64,000 nt of DNA from Synechococcus sp. PCC 7335 (lineage in GTDB: Bacteria > Cyanobacteriota > Cyanobacteriia > Phormidesmidales > Phormidesmidaceae). Positions 1,783 to 12,248 of this stretch are shown here, piece by piece. How positions within the stretch are numbered: the stretch's first letter is position 1; every line of letters begins with the position of its first letter. The stretch is taken from assembly GCF_000155595.1 (NCBI RefSeq), contig NZ_DS989904.1:4643987-4707986 (forward strand). Reading direction: 5' to 3'. The position numbers and the translations under genes are program-made. The notes beneath the pieces are model-generated. The model saw only the letters and a program-made list of their open reading frames with translations. It searched no databases and was not told the DNA's origin.

Positions 1783-2739
1783 CTATAGGTTTTGAGAAGA
1801 TAAATCTTCTATGTTGCTGTCTGTCCCCTCGTCAATTTCGTCTAGATAAGTGATTTCTAGAGAAGGTTCCAGATCTGAAGGCGGCTCAATCTCTAAAGAG
1901 GGTTCCATATCCGAAGGCGGCTCAATTTCTAAAGAAGGTTCCGCATCTGAAGGTGGTTCAATCTCCAAAGAAGGTTCCATGTCTGAAGGCGGTTCAATCT
2001 CTAGAGAGGGTTTCGTATCTGAACCCGTATCTAAAGGAGACTCAATTTCTAGAAAGAATTCCACATCTGAAGACGGTTCAATCTCTAGAGAAGGTTCCGT
2101 GTCTAAAGGAGACTCAATTTCTGCTGTTGTGGGCTGATCGAGGGTGTCATCAGACTGCTGGTGGCCCCTCAGGATAGACGCATCAAGAATAAGTAGGGTA
2201 TGGCGATCGCCGCTCACTTCACAGTTACTAATATGAGAAATATTCCGTAGCGCTTTGGATAGTCTTTTTTCTGGGGGTAGCGGGTTGAGCTCATGGTTAG
2301 AAATTTCTACTAGATCGGGAGGCTCATGTACCGCGATTCCCCTAAGGGTTTCGTCCGTATCGCGCAGGACTATTAGGAACGGTGGATTCTGAGTAGCAGC
2401 GCCTGTAGGGTTGTTCAGATAGGTATCTGAATCCTGTTTGTCTATGTCATCACTAACTCTATTATCTATGTCCTCTTGATCAAGAGCTTCGAGACTAAGC
2501 AATTCTGACAAGTTCAAGATCTCGATACTGTACTGTGCTAGCTGGACTAACCCCATGCTGACTAAACCTCCCTGGCTAGGTGGCGGGGTAGCAACTACTT
2601 TTAAAACTTTTTCGCTGGGCAGGGCAAATGAATAGTCTTCTACTTTGAAAGTAATGTACTTGCAGATCTCATCAGCGTCATCGTCATCTGCCAAGAAGGC
2701 TGAAGGGTTAGGAATTGTCTGGTTTAAGACAGAGGTCAT
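1783..2739 (-). CDS. CheW-like protein with acidic 12-residue repeat tail
   Basis: The N-terminal half (about residues 25-200) looks like a divergent CheW coupling domain: it opens with YITFKVEDYSFALPSEKVLKV, the usual first strands of CheW, followed by VSMGLVQLAQYSIEILNLSEL and a later ILRGH-ending strand. The C-terminal part (about residues 210-305) is a low-complexity acidic tail built from a 12-residue unit close to EPSLEIEPPSDM, repeated imperfectly about eight times. CheW proteins link receptors to CheA and are normally about 150-180 residues, so the tail is an addition. The ATG overlaps the CheA stop (ATGA at 2736-2739), which indicates translational coupling. A second, conventional CheW (pixI) is encoded upstream in the operon, so this is probably an accessory coupler or scaffold. 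The CheW assignment is moderately sure; the tail's role is unknown. Confidence 0.8.
   Translation of the reverse strand: MTSVLNQTIPNPSAFLADDDDADEICKYITFKVEDYSFALPSEKVLKVVATPPPSQGGLVSMGLVQLAQYSIEILNLSELLSLEALDQEDIDNRVSDDIDKQDSDTYLNNPTGAATQNPPFLIVLRDTDETLRGIAVHEPPDLVEISNHELNPLPPEKRLSKALRNISHISNCEVSGDRHTLLILDASILRGHQQSDDTLDQPTTAEIESPLDTEPSLEIEPSSDVEFFLEIESPLDTGSDTKPSLEIEPPSDMEPSLEIEPPSDAEPSLEIEPPSDMEPSLEIEPPSDLEPSLEITYLDEIDEGTDSNIEDLSSQNL
1850..2120. repeat. 36-bp imperfect tandem repeats inside the CheW-like gene
   Basis: The region coding for the acidic tail consists of roughly seven to eight imperfect 36-bp units, each carrying a variant of AAGGTTCCATATCTGAAGG on the plus strand. The unit is a multiple of three, so copy-number changes keep the frame. 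Interior units are most alike, while those at 2030-2110 are shorter or diverged. Confidence 0.85.
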
Positions 2740-5700
2740 AAGGATTCTCCTACGGCAGTGGTCGAGGAATTTCTGTGTGATATCAGATCTTTAGATTTTT
2801 GGCTCCTAGAGGTTGAGTTGTCGATTACTTCAGCAACAGTCTGTAGGAGCTGAGGCGCCAAGTAGGGCTTGGTTAGATAGTCCGTTGCCCCAAGTGCCTG
2901 AGTGAGTTGCCGATGTTTAGTACCCTTACGAGATGTCAGCATGATAGTGGGAATAGCGGCAATAGCTGGGTTTTGCTGACGAGCTTTTAGGAACTCAAAT
3001 CCATTCATTCCAGGCATTTCAATATCACATAAAATTGCAGCAATATTAGGATGACGTTCGAGCTGTTTGAGTGCTTCTGCACCGTCTCTAGCCTGAATCA
3101 CTTGATAATTAGCCTTCAGTAGTGCTTCTTTTAAAGTGTTGCGAACTGTAATCGAATCGTCCACCGTCAGAATCAGCTTTCCAACCAGAATTGGCTCGTT
3201 CTGAGCAAAGTTCGTGTGAGCAGGTGCTTCGCTTTGGAATGTGCTAATACTATCTTTGTCCTTGTTATCTAACTCGAACTTAGCGCTACTTCCATAGCCC
3301 TCATTAGAGCCACCTGCGAAATAGCGGTCGACAACAGTCTTGGCCAGCATGCCTCCATCGAGTACTAGCGTCTGCTGCCCGTCGGGTAATATGCTGCTGC
3401 CATACACATAGTCCGGTGGCAGTATCGTCTTTTCTAGGGCGGTGATAACTAACTCTTGTTCACCTAAAAGTTGACCAACCTCTAGTCCAATCAACGTATC
3501 TTTGTGGCGCAGCAAAACGATTGGAGTAAAAGACATATTCTCAATAGTTTGACCCATTTCCCTGATCTCCATAAGGCGGTGTCTAGCTAGAGGCGTGGTG
3601 TAGTGCAGCACATCGATAAGAGAATGAATAGGGATTAGATGTTCCTCTTTGCCAGCCTGCCAGATTAGAGTCTTGCCTCCTTCCCAAACTCGCATCTGAT
3701 CTGAGCTAGGAGTGAGAATATGCTCAACCGCGTCAAAAATCAGCGCATACGTTAGACCTTTCTCGCGGCAGAGCAAGAGCTTTGCGATGGTCGAACTCGA
3801 TGGAATGTGAAGACTAAAACAGGTACCTGAGCCGGGTTTATTATCGACGGTGATCCAACCCTGGAGCGATCGCACCTGAGCCTGTACCGCATCTAGTCCG
3901 ACACCACGTCCTGAAAGATCATCAACCTCGCTGGCGGTAGAAAATCCCGCTTCGAACAACAAATCTATTGTTTGCTCCGGGGTGAGTGTAGCCGCTGCTG
4001 CTGTTGTAATAATCTGAGTATCTATAGCCTTTTGGCGAATCTTCTCTAGATTCAACCCCTGTCCGTCATCTCTGACGTTAATCACCAAATGGCGGCCCTC
4101 TTGCAGAGCTTCAATGGTGATCTTACCAATAGCAGGTTTGTTATTCTGTTGCCTGCGTTCAGCCGATTCAATACCATGATCGAAGGCGTTGCGAAACAGA
4201 TGCAGCAAAGGATCGTAGAGCTTATCAGAAATCACTTTATCTACCAGCACATCGCCGCCGATGATGTCTAAATCAACTTGTTTGTTGTACTGACCTTTCA
4301 AACGTTCTAACGCGGATGGAAAGCGCCGGAAGATTTTTCCTAGTGGCAGCATTCTAGTTCCTACGAGGACTTCTCGGGTACCCGCTAATAACTGCTTTTG
4401 CCTCGTTAGCTCCTGCCCCGAGCGCGAAACGAAAAGCTCGATAGCTTCAACAATTTCTGACTGTTGAAGCATTTCTTCTAAGAAAGATTGTGAAAGTAGC
4501 TGTATATCGCTGTATTGATCTAGTTCTATAGAATCAAAGTGACTAAGATAGCTTTCTGAAAACTGGCTAGTGTTTGGGCTCACAGACTGAGTCGAAGGCT
4601 GGCTTAAAGGCTGCGTTTGAAATTGATTGATAGGCTTGTTCAAATGCTCTCGCTGATCGGCAATCCGTTCTAGAAGCGTTTTAATCAAAGCCGTTAGCTG
4701 ATCGTTGTACAGCGCTTGTCGGTTATGGTGAGTGAGTAGTTCACCTACAAATTGACTAAGCTGATCGAGATCTTTGATTGTCGTACGAATAGTCGCATTT
4801 TGGCTCGAGGCAGCCATGCTAGGCGTTGCCAGGGCAGTCTCGACTGCAGTCGGCCTTTTTGATTCCTCGGGTGAGGACATCGCTGAAAGATTTTCATGCT
4901 CCTTAGAATCTGAAGGAGCAATATCTCTATCTTCTAGGTCAGCGCTATCTTCTGGTTCATCGTCAAACTCATCATCGAATTCATCAAAGAACTCACAACC
5001 ATCATCCTCATCACTATCAGGAATGCTATCAACGAGGGTGCTATCGATAGAAATATCTGGTAACGCTTCTATCTTTTCATCCTCTAACTTGAGCACAGAA
5101 CTAGAACTTTGACTAGCTGCTTGATCAGGCGCTTCAATGACTTGTGTTGTAGTCGATTCTTGTGAAAAAAGCGTTCTTCGAACGGTTTGGGTGAGCGCTG
5201 CCCAGACCGTATGGAATAAGGTTGAATTCTCCTGCTGGGTTGTGTTGTTGGATTTGCGATCTAGCTGTGTATCTGTCGGGGAGAGTGACTGCTCAAAGCT
5301 ATCACTCATCTGTCCACAGAACGCCAGCAAAGCGTCTGAAGGTTGACCACCCTGTTCGCGATCGCCTGCGATTACCGCGCTATGAGCTGCTTGATAGTTG
5401 GCCAAAGCAACCGGTGCGATCTCTAATACACGATCAGGGCTTTTCTCTAGCGCGCTTAGTGTAGCCGTAGCAATATCACCGAATCCGGGCAGATTCAAGG
5501 ACTCTGAAAGACCTAGAAAAACCTCGGCCTGGGTCCCTAAAAGTTCTAAAAGCTCATCTGCATCTGGCTCTTCTAAAGCTTCTTCTAACGTTTGTAGCCG
5601 CTGTGCTACCCCGACTTCAAATATGGACTGGGTCATGTCGAACCCCAGCTCACTTGAAGTTGGCAAATGGCCCCCCTGACCAAAGCGATCGCCTAAAATA

Positions 5701-6092
5701 TCTTGAAATTTAGTGACGACCACCGCCATCCGATCAAGAATATCGGCCTCATCAACCTGAGCACCTGATAGCCGCGCTGACATCAGCAGCTTTAAGCAAT
5801 CGTAGCCTCGAAAGATCAACCCTTCCATCTCAACACTGATCACGGTGTCCGGATAGCATAATGCTTTGAAGACATCTTCTAAAGAATGGGTTGTCTTCTT
5901 AATAGCATCGAGTCCAACACTAGCTGCAGCACCTTTGAGCGTATGAGAGGCACGCATCAGATTGTGAACTTTTTGAACGCTGAATTCTTCTCTAATATTT
6001 TGCAGCTCAGTATCTATTGTTTCTAGAAGTTCAGTGGCTTCTTGCAAAAAGTACTGATAGGTTTGATCAGAAGCCGAGATATCTGTAGTCAT
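2736..6092 (-). CDS. pixL: CheA-type hybrid histidine kinase (PixL-like)
   Basis: This 1118-residue protein is the histidine kinase of the phototaxis pathway. An HPt domain fills residues 1 to about 110, with the phosphorylatable histidine in SHTLKG (His50). A long acidic linker (about 250-430) includes a DEFDDEFDDE-like patch. A short dimerisation region is followed by the kinase ATPase domain at about 610-790: N box RNAFDHG near residue 635, G1 DDGQG, G2 GRGVGLDAV. A CheW-like domain (about 790-930) and a C-terminal receiver complete it; the receiver phospho-acceptor is Asp1023 in CDIEMPG and its conserved lysine is in YLTKPY. This hybrid CheA-REC layout is that of PixL in Synechocystis. 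It follows pixJ after 140 bases and overlaps the next coupler by four bases. Confidence 0.95.
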   Translation of the reverse strand: MTTDISASDQTYQYFLQEATELLETIDTELQNIREEFSVQKVHNLMRASHTLKGAAASVGLDAIKKTTHSLEDVFKALCYPDTVISVEMEGLIFRGYDCLKLLMSARLSGAQVDEADILDRMAVVVTKFQDILGDRFGQGGHLPTSSELGFDMTQSIFEVGVAQRLQTLEEALEEPDADELLELLGTQAEVFLGLSESLNLPGFGDIATATLSALEKSPDRVLEIAPVALANYQAAHSAVIAGDREQGGQPSDALLAFCGQMSDSFEQSLSPTDTQLDRKSNNTTQQENSTLFHTVWAALTQTVRRTLFSQESTTTQVIEAPDQAASQSSSSVLKLEDEKIEALPDISIDSTLVDSIPDSDEDDGCEFFDEFDDEFDDEPEDSADLEDRDIAPSDSKEHENLSAMSSPEESKRPTAVETALATPSMAASSQNATIRTTIKDLDQLSQFVGELLTHHNRQALYNDQLTALIKTLLERIADQREHLNKPINQFQTQPLSQPSTQSVSPNTSQFSESYLSHFDSIELDQYSDIQLLSQSFLEEMLQQSEIVEAIELFVSRSGQELTRQKQLLAGTREVLVGTRMLPLGKIFRRFPSALERLKGQYNKQVDLDIIGGDVLVDKVISDKLYDPLLHLFRNAFDHGIESAERRQQNNKPAIGKITIEALQEGRHLVINVRDDGQGLNLEKIRQKAIDTQIITTAAAATLTPEQTIDLLFEAGFSTASEVDDLSGRGVGLDAVQAQVRSLQGWITVDNKPGSGTCFSLHIPSSSTIAKLLLCREKGLTYALIFDAVEHILTPSSDQMRVWEGGKTLIWQAGKEEHLIPIHSLIDVLHYTTPLARHRLMEIREMGQTIENMSFTPIVLLRHKDTLIGLEVGQLLGEQELVITALEKTILPPDYVYGSSILPDGQQTLVLDGGMLAKTVVDRYFAGGSNEGYGSSAKFELDNKDKDSISTFQSEAPAHTNFAQNEPILVGKLILTVDDSITVRNTLKEALLKANYQVIQARDGAEALKQLERHPNIAAILCDIEMPGMNGFEFLKARQQNPAIAAIPTIMLTSRKGTKHRQLTQALGATDYLTKPYLAPQLLQTVAEVIDNSTSRSQKSKDLISHRNSSTTAVGESL

Positions 6093-6232: not shown

Positions 6233-9200
6233 TTATTCGACTTTGAATTTACCAGCGTTAGATTGCAGCGTGGCGGCTGTCTCTAATACCTGCTGGATAG
6301 ACTGAGCCAAGTCGGTAGAGCTTTCGGAAGTTTGTTCAGCAATCTTTGTAGCATCACTCATCGTTTGGGTAACGTGCTTAAATTCGTCAGCTTGCTTATG
6401 TGTTGTTTGAGTGATATCTCCAATCAGCTGACTGATTTGACTAGTCGCTTCAACAATTGCGGTAAGGTTCTGCCGGGCGTCGGTCACCATATCAGTACCT
6501 TGAGCAACCTGTTGAATGCCTGTTTCCATTGCGGTAGAAACTTCTGCGGTGCCGACCTGAATTTCTTGGACAAATTGCTCGATTTCAGTGGCCGCGGCCG
6601 CTGACTGACGAGCAAGCGATCGCACTTCATCTGCCACCACTGCAAATCCTCGGCCATACTCCCCAGCACGAGTAGCTTCGATAGAAGCATTTAGCGCTAG
6701 TAGCTGAGTTTGCGTTGTGAAGTTGCTAATCAGGCTGACAATCTTAGAAACCTTTTGGGAAGATTCACTCAATCGCTTGATTCGCTGATTAGTTTCGGCC
6801 ACCGTCGAGCGGATAGCCATAATCCCATCTACAGTGCGGTTCATAGCAGCGTCACCTTGCTGCACAATCTGGTTGGTTTGTTCAGTTGCAGCTTCTACCT
6901 GCTGAGCGTCTTTAGCCACCGCTTCGGTAGAGTTCATCATTTCTTGAACGCGATCTAGCGCCTGCCCTAGCGATTTTGCCTGCTGCTGTGCCCGCTGTTT
7001 TACAGCGTCAGCAGAAGTTTCACTGAGCTTAGAGGTTTCACTCACCTTATCTGCCGCCGCCTGTACCTGTAAAACAATTTTTTGCAGGCTTTGAAGTGTG
7101 CTGTTATAGGCACTTGCCACCGTACCTACCTGGGTTTCTGTGACCTGAGCGCGGACAGTCAGATCACCTTGAAGTGCTGGCCCAACCGCCTGCAACAGCT
7201 GAATCACCTGTTGCTGAAGCTGCTCTTTAGACGCTTTCTCCCGCTCGGCAGTTTCGGTGAGTTTCACCGTCTGTGCCTGCACCTGAGTAAGATAATCAAC
7301 CTGCTGCATCGCAACTCCTAGCTGCAGGCTAACCTGTTTAAGAGCGTTAGTCTCGCTTTCTGCCCAGGAACGAGGCTCTCCCTTTTGATAAACGCTTAAC
7401 AAGCCCCAAAGGCGGCCTTCTTTGAAAACGGGTGCTGTCATATAAGCGTTGATTTCATTAGCTTCAAGCATCTCAATCTCCAAAGGAGCATGATTTGCCG
7501 CATAGATATTGTTGACGATTAGCTGTTCTTGGTTACGATATGGCCCTCCCTCACTTTCTTTTAGATCGGTCTTTGGCCAAATGGCTGATAGCGTTTGGCC
7601 AAGGCCAGTATCTTCCAAATCCTTTGAGCGCGATGGGTAGAGTAAATCGTGACTCCAGTCATCATTGAAGCAATAAATTGCTATGCGATCGCACTTTAGT
7701 ATCTGCTTTAGCCCTCGATGTATAGTTTGAAAAATTTGCTCAGTATCTTTAGCCTGTAGAATCTGAGGTACCAGTTCAGAGACCGCACGTCCCATCTGAG
7801 CTGTTTTAGTCATCTCAGTCGACTGCGCCTGTAGCTGAGCAATGTAGTCGGCCCCCTTTAGACTAGCCTCCATTTGACGACTGATTTCTTGTAGAACCTT
7901 GACATCGCTCTCTAGCCAATGCCGAGGGCCGCTGTGCTGAAACGTACTCAACAAACCCCAGAGTTTACCGCCTTGTCTAATCGCAACAATCAAGAAGGAC
8001 CTGACTTTGAAATACTCTAGGGTTTGAATATGGCACTCGCTCAAACCCGCCGTATAGATATCGTCCGCTAGAAAAGGCTGCTCGGTATTTTGAAATCTTC
8101 CGCCTTGATGCTTTTGCACATAGGTATCTTCCCAAGCACTGCCTACCAGATTTGGCCAGCCACTCGCGTGAGACTCATAGATAAAATCGCCAAAATAGTT
8201 TGGACGAAACTTGTAGATACAAACATGTTCTACATTCAACAGCTGACGAACCTCTTCTACAGCCGTCTGATAAATCTTTTCAGTATAGGCAGTATTACTG
8301 ATCTTGTTGATAATTTCTGGGAGCGCTTCCTGATTTTCAGCAGCCCTATCCATCTCTGCTAGCAGCTCTGATTGATGCAAACTAACACCGACTAGATCGC
8401 CTACTTGAGATAGCAGGCGGATGTCGTTCTCTTCCCAATGGCGAGCACCACTATGCTGGTATGCACCTAGTAGGCCCCAAAGCTTCTGCCCTCGATAGAT
8501 TGCAACAATTGCGCATGCCTGAATACCAAAGTCCGTAAGATTCTCCATGTGGCACGGCGATAGACTCGAATTTCGCTCTACCTGATGAACCACGAAGGGC
8601 TTGCTTTGACGAAAGATACCACCCTCTTGGCTTTGTAGGTGGCTATCTTCTAGAACAACATCTAGCATCGGCTCTAATCCTCCGACCTTCGATTCAAAAA
8701 CGAATTGAAGACTGTAGTCTTGGCGAAACTGGCAAATAGCAACACGCTCCACTTTCAAGAATTTTCTAAGGTCTTTGGTGGTGCTCTTGAAAAGAGTTTC
8801 TTGATCTGATATCTGTCGAAGTTTGCGACTTAAGGTAGTCAGTAGCTGTCGCTCAGATTCGAAGCTCAAAGGCAAAAGATTGACCTGTAGCTCGCTGGCT
8901 ACTAGGTACAAAAAGCTAATCTCGTTCTCATTCCATTGTCTGGGCGCACTGCACTGTTGGACAACGAGTAGACCCCAAAGCTGATCTTCTAGAAAAATAG
9001 GTAGGCTTAGACTAGCTTTTGTCTGAAACTGATTAAACAGCTGCATCTGGTAGGGCGTGACAGTTGCCTCAGAAGTATCGGTGATTACCACTGATGGCCG
9101 CTGCTTGTAGCTTTCTAGATTGCTTTCACCAAAGGCGATCGCCGGTAGAGACCTACCTAGCATTGGACTATAGTCAGAGCTTCGAGATTCCGCAACAACG

Positions 9201-9595
9201 GTGCCTAGAGCTTCAGACTGAAACTGATAGATAAGAGCTCTTTCTACCTGAAAACGCTTACGAAGTTCAGTTACAGAAATTTGATAAAGGTTGTCAATAC
9301 TAGTTGCAAGGGCCATGCGATTGGCTATCGAAAAGGCTCGCTTCCCTTCCTTCTGTGATAGATGTTGAGTAAATTGCGACAAGGATAGATCGACAGAAGG
9401 CTGTGCTAACACGGCCTCTATAGAAGCAGTATCAATCTCTTGCGTTTCCTCTTCAGTTTCAATATCTTCCGACATCAGTACGGGCTCGACTGTTCCTTCA
9501 CTATTCAATTCTTGAAGAGAATCGTTTTCCTCATGTGAGGAATCAACATTTTCAATTTCGTGAGATCCGTTGCGAGCGGCGTTAGCTATGGTCAT
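6233..9595 (-). CDS. pixJ: Soluble multi-GAF methyl-accepting photoreceptor (PixJ-like cyanobacteriochrome)
   Basis: This 1120-residue protein has an acidic N-terminal region (1-70), four consecutive GAF domains (about 95-240, 255-415, 430-590 and 610-765), a HAMP-like linker (about 785-850) and an MCP signalling domain to the end, with the conserved hairpin tip [20 protein letters not shown]2 and GAF3 carry the Cys-His pair that attaches a bilin in cyanobacteriochromes: Cys348 in SPCHMENL and Cys521 in [11 protein letters not shown]3 also has the WEDTY and QGGRF segments typical of this class. Neither has an obvious DXCF second cysteine. GAF1 and GAF4 have YQ and LE at the Cys-His position and are unlikely to bind bilin. 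No transmembrane segment is present, unlike Synechocystis PixJ1, so the receptor should be cytoplasmic. Its place between pixI and pixL supports a phototaxis role; the colour sensed cannot be predicted safely. Confidence 0.93.
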
Positions 9596-9825: not shown

Positions 9826-10374
9826 CTAACGATAAGCATGTAATTGTGGAGCACTAAAGATAGAGGAAGTCTTTATCACAACGCTATTTCGCTGGGGTAA
9901 ATGACCTGAAATAAACGGTTCTAATCCAGGAGAGCATAGTCCAGAACTTTGAATAACCTCCTCCTCATCGAACAGATCAATATCGCTGATCTGTTCTACA
10001 ACGAGTCCTAGTGTTTGACCGTTATCTTGAACTACAACCACATTCAACGTTTCTACCAGCTGAGAGCGCTGATACAACGATTCGTAGCCAACTAGGTGAT
10101 TGAAATCCACTACCCAGAGCGTTTCTCCTTTCCAGACACACACGCCCATAATGCAACTCGCCATATCTGGAATAGGCAGAATGTCACTAGAGGGTAGCTG
10201 CATTGCCTCTACAACATAGGAAAGAGAGAGCAGGGCTTGATAGTCCTTAGAAAGCACAAATCTCAGGAACCGCTTTCGATTATCCTTTGGTAGGGGTGAT
10301 AGTCCCAGGGGATCTTGAGACAAAATTGAAGGATCTAGAGCCGGGAGACTAGCGTCGTTTTCAGTTAATAGCAT
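9826..10374 (-). CDS. pixI: CheW-like coupling protein (PixI-like)
   Basis: This 182-residue protein has a single CheW domain from about residue 35. Visible family segments are FLRFVLSKDYQALLSLSYVV-like first strands, IMGVCVWKGETLWVVDFN (the CheW core strand pair) and LGLVVEQISDI. CheW proteins bridge the receptor signalling tip and CheA. It lies 25 bases after pixH and 230 bases before pixJ, in the order seen in the pix locus of Synechocystis. The first 35 residues are a polar extension. Length is normal for the family and the start ATG is unambiguous. Confidence 0.9.
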   Translation of the reverse strand: MLLTENDASLPALDPSILSQDPLGLSPLPKDNRKRFLRFVLSKDYQALLSLSYVVEAMQLPSSDILPIPDMASCIMGVCVWKGETLWVVDFNHLVGYESLYQRSQLVETLNVVVVQDNGQTLGLVVEQISDIDLFDEEEVIQSSGLCSPGLEPFISGHLPQRNSVVIKTSSIFSAPQLHAYR

Positions 10375-10399: not shown

Positions 10400-10762
10400 T
10401 TAAGGTATGAGTTGTTCAACTGTCTGAGTTAGCAATTGCTGATCAACCGGCTTAGTCAGATAAGCATCTGCCCCTAACATAGAGCCCCATAGCTTATCGG
10501 CCTCAGTATCTTTAGTCGAACAGATAATAATTGGAATTGCTCGGGTATCTTCGTTTGTTTTGAGATCACGGCAAAATTCGAACCCACTTTGACCTGGTAA
10601 AACAACATCTAAAAAAACAACGTCTAGAGACATTTGCTGAATAATATTCAGTGCCTCTTCGCAGCTCTGAGCCGTTTTGACTGTCATTCCAGCTTTCTGT
10701 AGGTAGGAGGTAAGAAGATTTCTATCTGTGAGGCTATCTTCTACGATAAGAGCAGTTGTCAT
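10400..10762 (-). CDS. pixH: CheY-like response regulator (PixH-like)
   Basis: This is a stand-alone receiver domain of 120 residues. The acidic pocket is Glu8-Asp9, the phospho-acceptor is Asp52 in FLDVVLPG, and the conserved lysine is in YLTKP near the C-terminus. It has no output domain. PixH and PixG are the two phosphorylation targets of the pix kinase that act on the type IV pilus machinery in Synechocystis; that role is inferred here from synteny. It is preceded by pixG and followed after 25 bases by pixI. Confidence 0.93.
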   Translation of the reverse strand: MTTALIVEDSLTDRNLLTSYLQKAGMTVKTAQSCEEALNIIQQMSLDVVFLDVVLPGQSGFEFCRDLKTNEDTRAIPIIICSTKDTEADKLWGSMLGADAYLTKPVDQQLLTQTVEQLIP

Positions 10763-10898: not shown

Positions 10899-12230
10899 TT
10901 AAGCGGTATCTAGGCGCCTTGCTTCCTTAGGTATGTACTTATTGAGCACCTTTAAAATTCTTCTTTCTTCGATAGGTTTCCCCATGAAGCCGGAAGCACC
11001 AACAAGTTTTGCACGAACTCTATCAGCAATGCCGTCATTACTAGTCACGATTATCACGGGTATGTCTTTGAAGGCAGTGATTCTTCGAATCTGAGAACAC
11101 ACTTCGTATCCATTAGCAACCGGCATGACCAAATCTAGAAAGATAAGCCGAGGTTTTAGCTCGATCAGCATAGGCAGAGCTTGAAGCGGATCTTGAATAT
11201 TGACATACTTATAACCTAGCTTCTCCACAATAGAACACATAGCCCGGCTATCAGCAGGGCTATCATCTATGTAGACGACTGTAGGCGCTTTGTCCCTACT
11301 GGCACTCCTGCTTCTTTTGGAGGTGCTAGCTTCGCTTGATAGCTTTCCATCCGTTTGTTTCTCAGCTACCGGTCCTTGAGTAGACAGGGCTGCACGAGGT
11401 GATCCTTGAGGTGGCGTTGCTGGTGCTAACTCCTTCATCGTTTCTGGGTGAAAGCCATGATGAGCTTCATCTGCAATATCAGAGACCTCAGTGAAAGCGA
11501 GCAACTGCCTAGAGACATAAGGAAAAATAGATCTAGCAATCGAGATGATTGGTTGTTTTAGCTTGATAGATAGATCTCTAAGCGTATTTTCACCGTTGGC
11601 AAAGCTATTTAGAGTCTGAAATGTCTGAGGAGACGTTTGGTCTTTGAGTTCTCTATGTAGCTTAATAGTAGGCGCCCAGTTAGGAGAAAGTTTGGCCAAA
11701 CCCGCCTGTTGCCATTCTTGCCAATCCTGCTGTGCCTTCTCCCAAGACTGAAGCTTTTGAAGCATGAGAAAAGGCATATCAGCCGCTTCTTTACTTTGCA
11801 CGTCAATCGATATCTCGCCAGCTTCTTCGTATGGCAGCATGCTGGATTGCAGAATGTCGAATAGAGCTTCTGCTACATAGTCTTCAACAATTTTAGAAAA
11901 TTGATCTCTGGGAAACTGCTTCAGCCTAACAAGTCGCGAAAGCGCAAGATAATTCCAGGATTCGTAGGGTGCTAGCTCGCCAGTCTGTTCACAAAATGTA
12001 GGACTATGAACAGTTAAATGCCTTTTCCAACTTCGAAGGGGATGCTGACTGGACTGCGCCCAAACAATTCGACCCAACATCAAATAAACATACCATAGGT
12101 TGGTTTTATGTCCGCTGATTTTAAGCAACCCTGTAAATTTCTGATCGTAACAATCACGTATTTTCTCTGTTAGCTTTCTAGCGACAGCTTTCTCTTGTAT
12201 ATCTTCTATTGGAGTCATATTTATAGGCAT
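10899..12230 (-). CDS. pixG: PatA-like response regulator (PixG-like)
   Basis: The protein has an N-terminal DUF4388/PatA-type region (about residues 10-240), a Ser-rich linker and a C-terminal receiver (about 315-435). The receiver has the acidic pair in YIDDSPAD, the phospho-acceptor in FLDLVMP and the lysine in MGKPI. I start it at the ATG at 12230; a TTG at 12248 and a second ATG at 12218 are alternatives, and none has a clear ribosome-binding site. PatA-type regulators open the pix operon of Synechocystis and act on pilus motility. The next gene, pixH, starts 136 bases downstream. Confidence 0.9.
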   Translation of the reverse strand: MPINMTPIEDIQEKAVARKLTEKIRDCYDQKFTGLLKISGHKTNLWYVYLMLGRIVWAQSSQHPLRSWKRHLTVHSPTFCEQTGELAPYESWNYLALSRLVRLKQFPRDQFSKIVEDYVAEALFDILQSSMLPYEEAGEISIDVQSKEAADMPFLMLQKLQSWEKAQQDWQEWQQAGLAKLSPNWAPTIKLHRELKDQTSPQTFQTLNSFANGENTLRDLSIKLKQPIISIARSIFPYVSRQLLAFTEVSDIADEAHHGFHPETMKELAPATPPQGSPRAALSTQGPVAEKQTDGKLSSEASTSKRSRSASRDKAPTVVYIDDSPADSRAMCSIVEKLGYKYVNIQDPLQALPMLIELKPRLIFLDLVMPVANGYEVCSQIRRITAFKDIPVIIVTSNDGIADRVRAKLVGASGFMGKPIEERRILKVLNKYIPKEARRLDTA

Positions 12231-12248
12231 GCCAGAAGCGAGAACCAA

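Follow-up and report, generated by a model that had tools for sequence, protein, structure and literature searches.

The window, meaning the whole stretch of 64,000 nucleotides of Synechococcus sp. PCC 7335 that was analyzed, contains a pix-type operon. Its genes lie on the same strand in the order PixG-like, PixH-like, PixI-like CheW, receptor, PixL-like CheA, and second CheW (Table 1), which bears out the pix operon of the original prediction; the Pix names are applied by analogy. The C-terminal acidic, proline-rich repeats of the second CheW (1783-2739) correspond to a 36-base array at 1856-2023, and the relative LEGE 11477 has a similar tail.

Table 1. Genes of the pix-type operon and regions of its receptor gene, by position in the window.
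Feature	Position	Strand	Description
Second CheW	1783..2739	-	acidic, proline-rich repeat tail
PixL-like CheA	2736..6092	-	Hpt, HATPase, CheW, receiver
pixJ-like gene	6233..9595	-	soluble four-GAF MCP photoreceptor, 1120 aa from ATG
MCP signaling region	6236..7075	-	residues 841-1120; Pfam match 931-1085
GAF4	7271..7801	-	residues 599-775; placed among the red/green-type GAFs; has lost Cys and the pocket Asp
Short repeat QQVDYL	7289..7306	-	site where the relatives' fifth DXCF-type GAF is absent
GAF3	7808..8332	-	residues 422-596; JSC1_58120g3 lineage; Cys521 codon 8033-8035
GAF2	8336..8845	-	residues 251-420; JSC1_58120g3 lineage; Cys348 codon 8552-8554
GAF1	8846..9343	-	residues 85-250; YQ, without Cys at the canonical site
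PixI-like CheW	9826..10374	-	Pfam
PixH-like CheY receiver	10400..10762	-	Pfam
PixG-like response regulator	10899..12248	-	receiver 324-435; DUF4388 match below cut-off

The product of the pixJ-like gene consists of four GAF stretches and one MCP signaling domain as detected by Pfam. The motifs PCHM (residues 347-350) and ECHI (residues 520-523) contain Cys348-His349 and Cys521-His522, the two cysteines being 173 residues apart. The canonical site is occupied by YQ in GAF1 (TPYQMQ) and by LE in GAF4 (HAPLEIE), and the two Cys-bearing GAFs sit between two GAFs that carry no Cys, all of which had been read correctly beforehand. GAF2 and GAF3 both display what marks a cyanobacteriochrome (CBCR) in sequence—a canonical Cys followed by His and likeness to solved CBCR GAFs. 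No 19-residue Kyte-Doolittle window of the receptor lies above 1.6, the peak mean being 1.33. Together with the Pfam domains, this upholds the predicted soluble MCP-type receptor. The AlphaFold model of the whole receptor is poor (mean pLDDT of 57) and usable only for the order of the elements: a low-confidence stretch of 88 residues comes first, followed by four GAF-like stretches linked by long helices and by the long helices of the MCP region.

The same genome contains a second pix-type operon, approximately 50 kb from the pixJ-like gene (L107, G000:C1:4585500-4603000). Its membrane-bound receptor of 1236 residues has the build of PixJ1 and comprises two hydrophobic segments (highest 19-residue hydropathy mean of 2.65), a HAMP domain, two GAFs, one of which is of the DXCF type, and an MCP domain. 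For PixJ1 itself, a blue/green GAF and a pair of membrane segments are described (PMC5812497). The window receptor resembles PixJ1 and TePixJ in being an MCP photoreceptor with PixG, H, I, and L partners. However, it has no membrane segments, as the original prediction had stated for the contrast with PixJ1; with no HAMP match, no DXCF motif in its four GAFs, and no hydrophobic segment, it falls outside the PixJ1/TePixJ type. Several GAFs in front of an MCP domain, no hydrophobic segment, and a che/pix operon are instead the features of soluble receptors of the AnPixJ/PtxD type. PtxD of Nostoc punctiforme is likewise a multi-GAF CBCR with an MCP domain in a che-type cluster, but it has seven GAFs as opposed to four, at least six of them with bilin and together covering six colors (PMC5812497). 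The AnPixJ-type receptors of loci L120-L124, whose GAFs group with GAF2 of AnPixJ, have four GAFs and an MCP domain; all five are without a membrane segment, and their GAF1 has YQ where readable. The difference lies in the lineage: AnPixJ GAF2 (PDB 3w2z, Anabaena) is a member of the red/green group, and the tree places none of its GAFs from the receptors of the L120-L124 genomes in the far-red lineage. Five DXCF-GAF receptors and one second copy just exceed a hydropathy of 1.6 (1.62-1.70), and they do so within GAF domains. Solubility combined with several bilin GAFs is ordinary for AnPixJ/PtxD-type receptors and nothing special.

A comparison of GAF2 and GAF3 with solved structures identifies JSC1_58120g3 as the best match for both (147 bits for GAF2, 180 bits for GAF3), followed by NpR6012g4 (137 and 152 bits). 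For the trees, 205 GAF rows were taken from the loci, whereby only GAFs filling most of the domain profile were kept and partial ones left out. FastTree was run on all 205 GAFs and IQ-TREE on the 101 rows that form the red/green and far-red side of the first tree, without an engineered AnPixJ variant. GAF2, GAF3, and JSC1_58120g3 fall into one clade of 45 rows, which is supported by 0.998 in FastTree (205 rows) and 100/97 in IQ-TREE (101 rows). Herein, GAF3 and JSC1_58120g3 belong to a clade of 36 rows (0.957 and 99/96), and GAF2 belongs to its sister clade of nine rows (0.871 and 98/87). AnPixJ GAF2, NpR6012g4, and Slr1393g3 are placed outside the 45 rows.

The clade is also marked by common residues, numbered here after AnPixJ. 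Four residues are deleted ahead of the Trp-Glu-Asp motif in 45/45 lineage rows versus 2/56 others. Phe or Leu occupies position 302 in 45/45 versus 1/56, and Cys or Phe occupies position 334 in 44/45 versus 1/56; His is absent at position 318 in 45/45 versus 11/56. Twenty further GAFs, a selection from the next-best scores, were added to test the clade: 19 stay outside, and the one that joins is a second copy in an already counted genome (G221). None of the 19 has Phe or Leu at 302 or the full 4-residue deletion; two have Phe334, one has Gln334, and seven lack His318. Hence, positions 318 and 334 are weaker markers of the lineage. GAF2 and GAF3 share with JSC1_58120g3 (PDB 6xhg/6xhh) the clade, the deletion, Phe302, Leu318, and Cys-His. 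They differ in having no insertion before the Cys; in addition, GAF3 deviates at positions 292, 334, and 336 (Thr292, Phe334, Ile336), and GAF2 lacks Trp289 and Arg301. The insertion, which occurs in JSC1_58120g3 and some members, is missing from other clade members as well and is a trait of only part of the far-red clade. A descent of GAF2 and GAF3 from the far-red CBCR lineage of JSC1_58120g3 is strongly supported by these comparisons.

The lineage was reportedly defined by Moreno in 2020, and we know of no characterized member besides JSC1_58120g3. This protein takes biliverdin (BV) and 18,18-dihydrobiliverdin (DHBV) but not phycocyanobilin (PCB) or other A-ring-reduced bilins (PMC10151467). 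Going by kinship, GAF2 and GAF3 would bind verdins and sense far-red light. The original prediction had called the sensed colors unknown; the placement of both GAFs in this lineage narrows the range.

The two GAFs are not equivalent. In GAF3, the pocket residues Trp, Asp, Tyr293, Arg, Phe302, Leu318, and Cys-His are all present. GAF2 has Leu in place of Trp (289) and Ile in place of Arg (301) and retains His293, so that the two pockets differ at 289, 293, 301, and 334. Cys348 and Cys521 are kept in 7/7 orthologues and are therefore not there by chance; His522 is kept in 7/7 and His349 in 6/7 (one Tyr). The GAF2 pocket of the seven orthologues has Leu or Ser instead of Trp in 7/7, has lost Arg in 6/7, and has kept Asp in 7/7. 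The mean pairwise identity of the seven orthologues (21 pairs) amounts to 87.6% for GAF3, 68.0% for GAF1, 66.8% for GAF2, 66.2% for GAF4, and 80.0% for the MCP region; in conservation, GAF3 leads the other domains of the receptor by a wide margin. Likewise, dN is lowest in GAF3 in three of four pairs and lowest among the GAFs in the fourth (RL/BC); dN alone was used, and per-domain dN/dS ratios were rejected, because dS is near or beyond saturation. GAF4 lies on the red/green side of the tree, lacks the Cys in 12/12 orthologous rows, and looks like a long-standing non-bilin domain. The "dual bilin" receptor originally proposed thus stands as far as both cysteines are present and kept, but its GAF2 half is uncertain: bilin binding by GAF2 is less sure than by GAF3 because the pocket Trp and Arg are lost although the Cys is kept.

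In five of the seven close orthologues (LEGE 11477, RL_2_1, ULC027, G032, and G008), a fifth GAF follows GAF4 and precedes the MCP region. It has DHCF and Cys-Leu and is of the DXCF type. DXCF GAFs are usually blue-absorbing, and the fifth GAF of the relatives is probably blue-sensing. It is absent from the window gene and from Leptolyngbya sp. BC1307. Since IQ-TREE joins the window gene with the five-GAF gene of LEGE 11477 (GAF2 100/99, GAF3 100/98, GAF4 100/100), and since a DXCF GAF likewise comes last in the more distant L054, L055, L056, L059, and L060, two separate losses would be the simplest account. Exchange between strains may be an alternative. The window gene matches the end of GAF4 of LEGE 11477 up to the QQVDYL repeat and the end of its GAF5 after it—a join such as recombination between repeats would leave.

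The surroundings of far-red-lineage GAFs were surveyed at 23 loci in 20 genomes, with flanks as far as the contigs allow (the window, L013-L016, L108-L115, and L145-L154, all motif-checked; L027, L059, and L143 were left out). MCP receptors are encoded at 22 of the 23 loci, L149 being a histidine kinase, and at 21 the receptor lies on one strand with CheA and PixG/PixH relatives, i.e. in a conserved pix-type operon. The MCP of L154 is located on a 3.8-kb contig. The first 13 loci were found by whole-receptor likeness, which favors MCPs; the last ten were picked by GAF alone and yield nine MCPs and eight pix-type operons. The set includes receptors whose GAFs bear the insertion of JSC1_58120g3. 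Judged by these counts, the sampled part of the JSC1_58120g3 lineage consists mainly of pix-type receptors. Some of these receptors have further architectures: L145, L146, L148, and L154 encode MCP receptors with three tandem far-red-motif GAFs, and L152 has seven GAFs in a receptor of 1779 residues.

The genome also contains clusters that we read as the far-red photoacclimation (FaRLiP) gene set, with names taken from Pfam and NCBIfam matches and, beyond these, read from translations. At L118 (G000:C1:1638000-1657500), a ChlF-like PsbA adjoins PsaA, PsaB, a phytochrome kinase, and two response regulators; L116 and L117 (G000:C1:2738000-2777800) carry PsbA, PsbB, PsbC, PsbD, allophycocyanin-type, and short ApcE-type genes. 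At L116:6115-11095, 7 kb away from the photosystem II cluster, a phytochrome kinase, a small receiver protein, and a DXCF-motif receiver-GAF-kinase adjoin one another; this phytochrome kinase has a Cys near the N terminus and none at the GAF site.

The ChlF level was set at ≥65% identity and ≥469 bits, the next group reaching ≤428 bits, and up to six candidates were scored per genome. By this measure, at least 22 of the 291 class genomes have ChlF-like genes; in G102, which is among them, a stop interrupts the match. ChlF-like genes are found in 5/11 genomes with a GAF3-type receptor versus 17/280 others (Fisher p 0.0005) and, by genus, in 4/6 versus 13/124 (p 0.003); for the whole lineage, the numbers are 5/19 versus 17/272 genomes (p 0.009) and 4/13 versus 13/117 genera (p 0.07), all p values being uncorrected for the kinship of these related genomes and both genomes and genera being hand-sorted. 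In a second search of the 14 ChlF-less lineage genomes that scored all candidates, 0/14 reached the ChlF level; G003 and G060 yielded no intact psbA at all, so that the absence of ChlF cannot be judged for these two. Six of the 11 genomes with a GAF3-type receptor, including G003, which is not judgeable, are thus without a detected ChlF. The overlap is suggestive only. Far-red photoacclimation was rejected as the driver of the receptor because most carriers show no ChlF, and for the same reason the receptor has no fixed link with far-red photosynthesis.

As for the bilin supply, the genome has pebA, pebB, and two pcyA genes. The second pcyA (L119, G000:C1:4082000-4101500) is accompanied by a photoreceptor-like protein of 771 residues, two response regulators, and genes that look like phycocyanin and linker genes. 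A role of the second PcyA as verdin supplier finds no support, as its gene adjoins these likely phycocyanin and linker genes.

The reading to which we give somewhat better than even chances is that of an AnPixJ/PtxD-type phototaxis receptor in which GAF3 is the main far-red-lineage sensor and GAF2 a second, altered one. The operon and the homologues point to the role in phototaxis. GAF3 would most likely bind BV or DHBV through Cys521, PCB being less likely, and would switch between a far-red form and a form absorbing at shorter wavelength. GAF1 and GAF4, taken to be free of bilin, may be part of a helical stalk and serve there as spacers or for dimer formation. Light absorbed in GAF3, and perhaps in GAF2, would alter this stalk and thereby the MCP tip, which would set the activity of CheA (PixL) via CheW; CheA would then phosphorylate the PixG/PixH receivers, which would bias type IV pili. 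With the loss of the MCP-proximal, blue-type DXCF GAF, the remaining Cys-His GAFs are all of the far-red lineage.

Other assignments of the pigments have to be weighed against this. GAF3, and GAF2 with it, could bind PCB as ordinary red/green sensors in the manner of AnPixJ GAF2, the lineage then not being uniformly far-red. PCB is likely available from the two pcyA genes, the red/green set of Cys-His, Asp, and, in GAF3, Trp is kept, and GAF3 has no JSC1_58120g3 insertion and carries Phe, not Cys, at 334; yet the strong clade and the pocket changes in common with JSC1_58120g3, which does not take PCB, make this rather unlikely. A pigment on GAF3 only, with GAF2 decaying or structural, deserves more credit, albeit less than an even chance. 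GAF2 varies roughly as much as GAF1 and GAF4, which have no Cys, and its Trp and Arg are replaced throughout or nearly throughout the orthologues; moreover, its counterpart at L055 (G202), a more distant relative, carries Cys-Asp, and the arrays of L056, L059, and L060 are without a GAF2-type GAF. Against it speak Cys348 and the pocket Asp, each conserved in 7/7 orthologues. The conservation of both cysteines, and the four positions at which the pockets differ, would also suit the two-color comparator of the original prediction; differently tuned bilins of GAF2 and GAF3 would then have their outputs added by the stalk. The unequal rates of change suggest unequal roles of the two domains, and we regard the comparator as improbable.

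The behavior that is controlled may also be another one, namely the sensitivity to light patterns (photophobotaxis) instead of direction. PixJ of the filamentous Phormidium lacuna lowers photophobotactic sensitivity (PMC13383048), and a soluble receptor would have no obvious means to read a light image at the membrane. On the other hand, PtxD, likewise an MCP-type CBCR, is required for directional phototaxis according to PMC5812497. A tuning role of this kind is a serious possibility that we place a little below even.

The meaning we attach to the favored reading, that of a phototaxis receptor with GAF3 as its main far-red-lineage sensor, is tentative. The JSC1_58120g3 lineage may be, at heart, one of phototaxis receptors, and cyanobacteria of many genera may find their way by far-red-sensing MCPs that bind verdins, be they capable of far-red photosynthesis or not. 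In the organism described here, the blue-type GAF would have been dropped and only far-red-lineage sensors kept beside a separate blue/green-type PixJ, so that far-red-photoacclimating cells could navigate far-red-rich shade. The phototaxis receptors known to us sense UV, blue, green, or red light; among the literature matches listed, no title deals with far-red phototaxis, which does not imply its absence from print. The receptor offers a defined protein with two cysteines, a natural domain-loss pair (four versus five GAFs), and a testable color. If the reading is true, cells would also steer by far-red light, and the small GAFs with verdin binding that far-red optogenetics looks for would have evolved within motility receptors.
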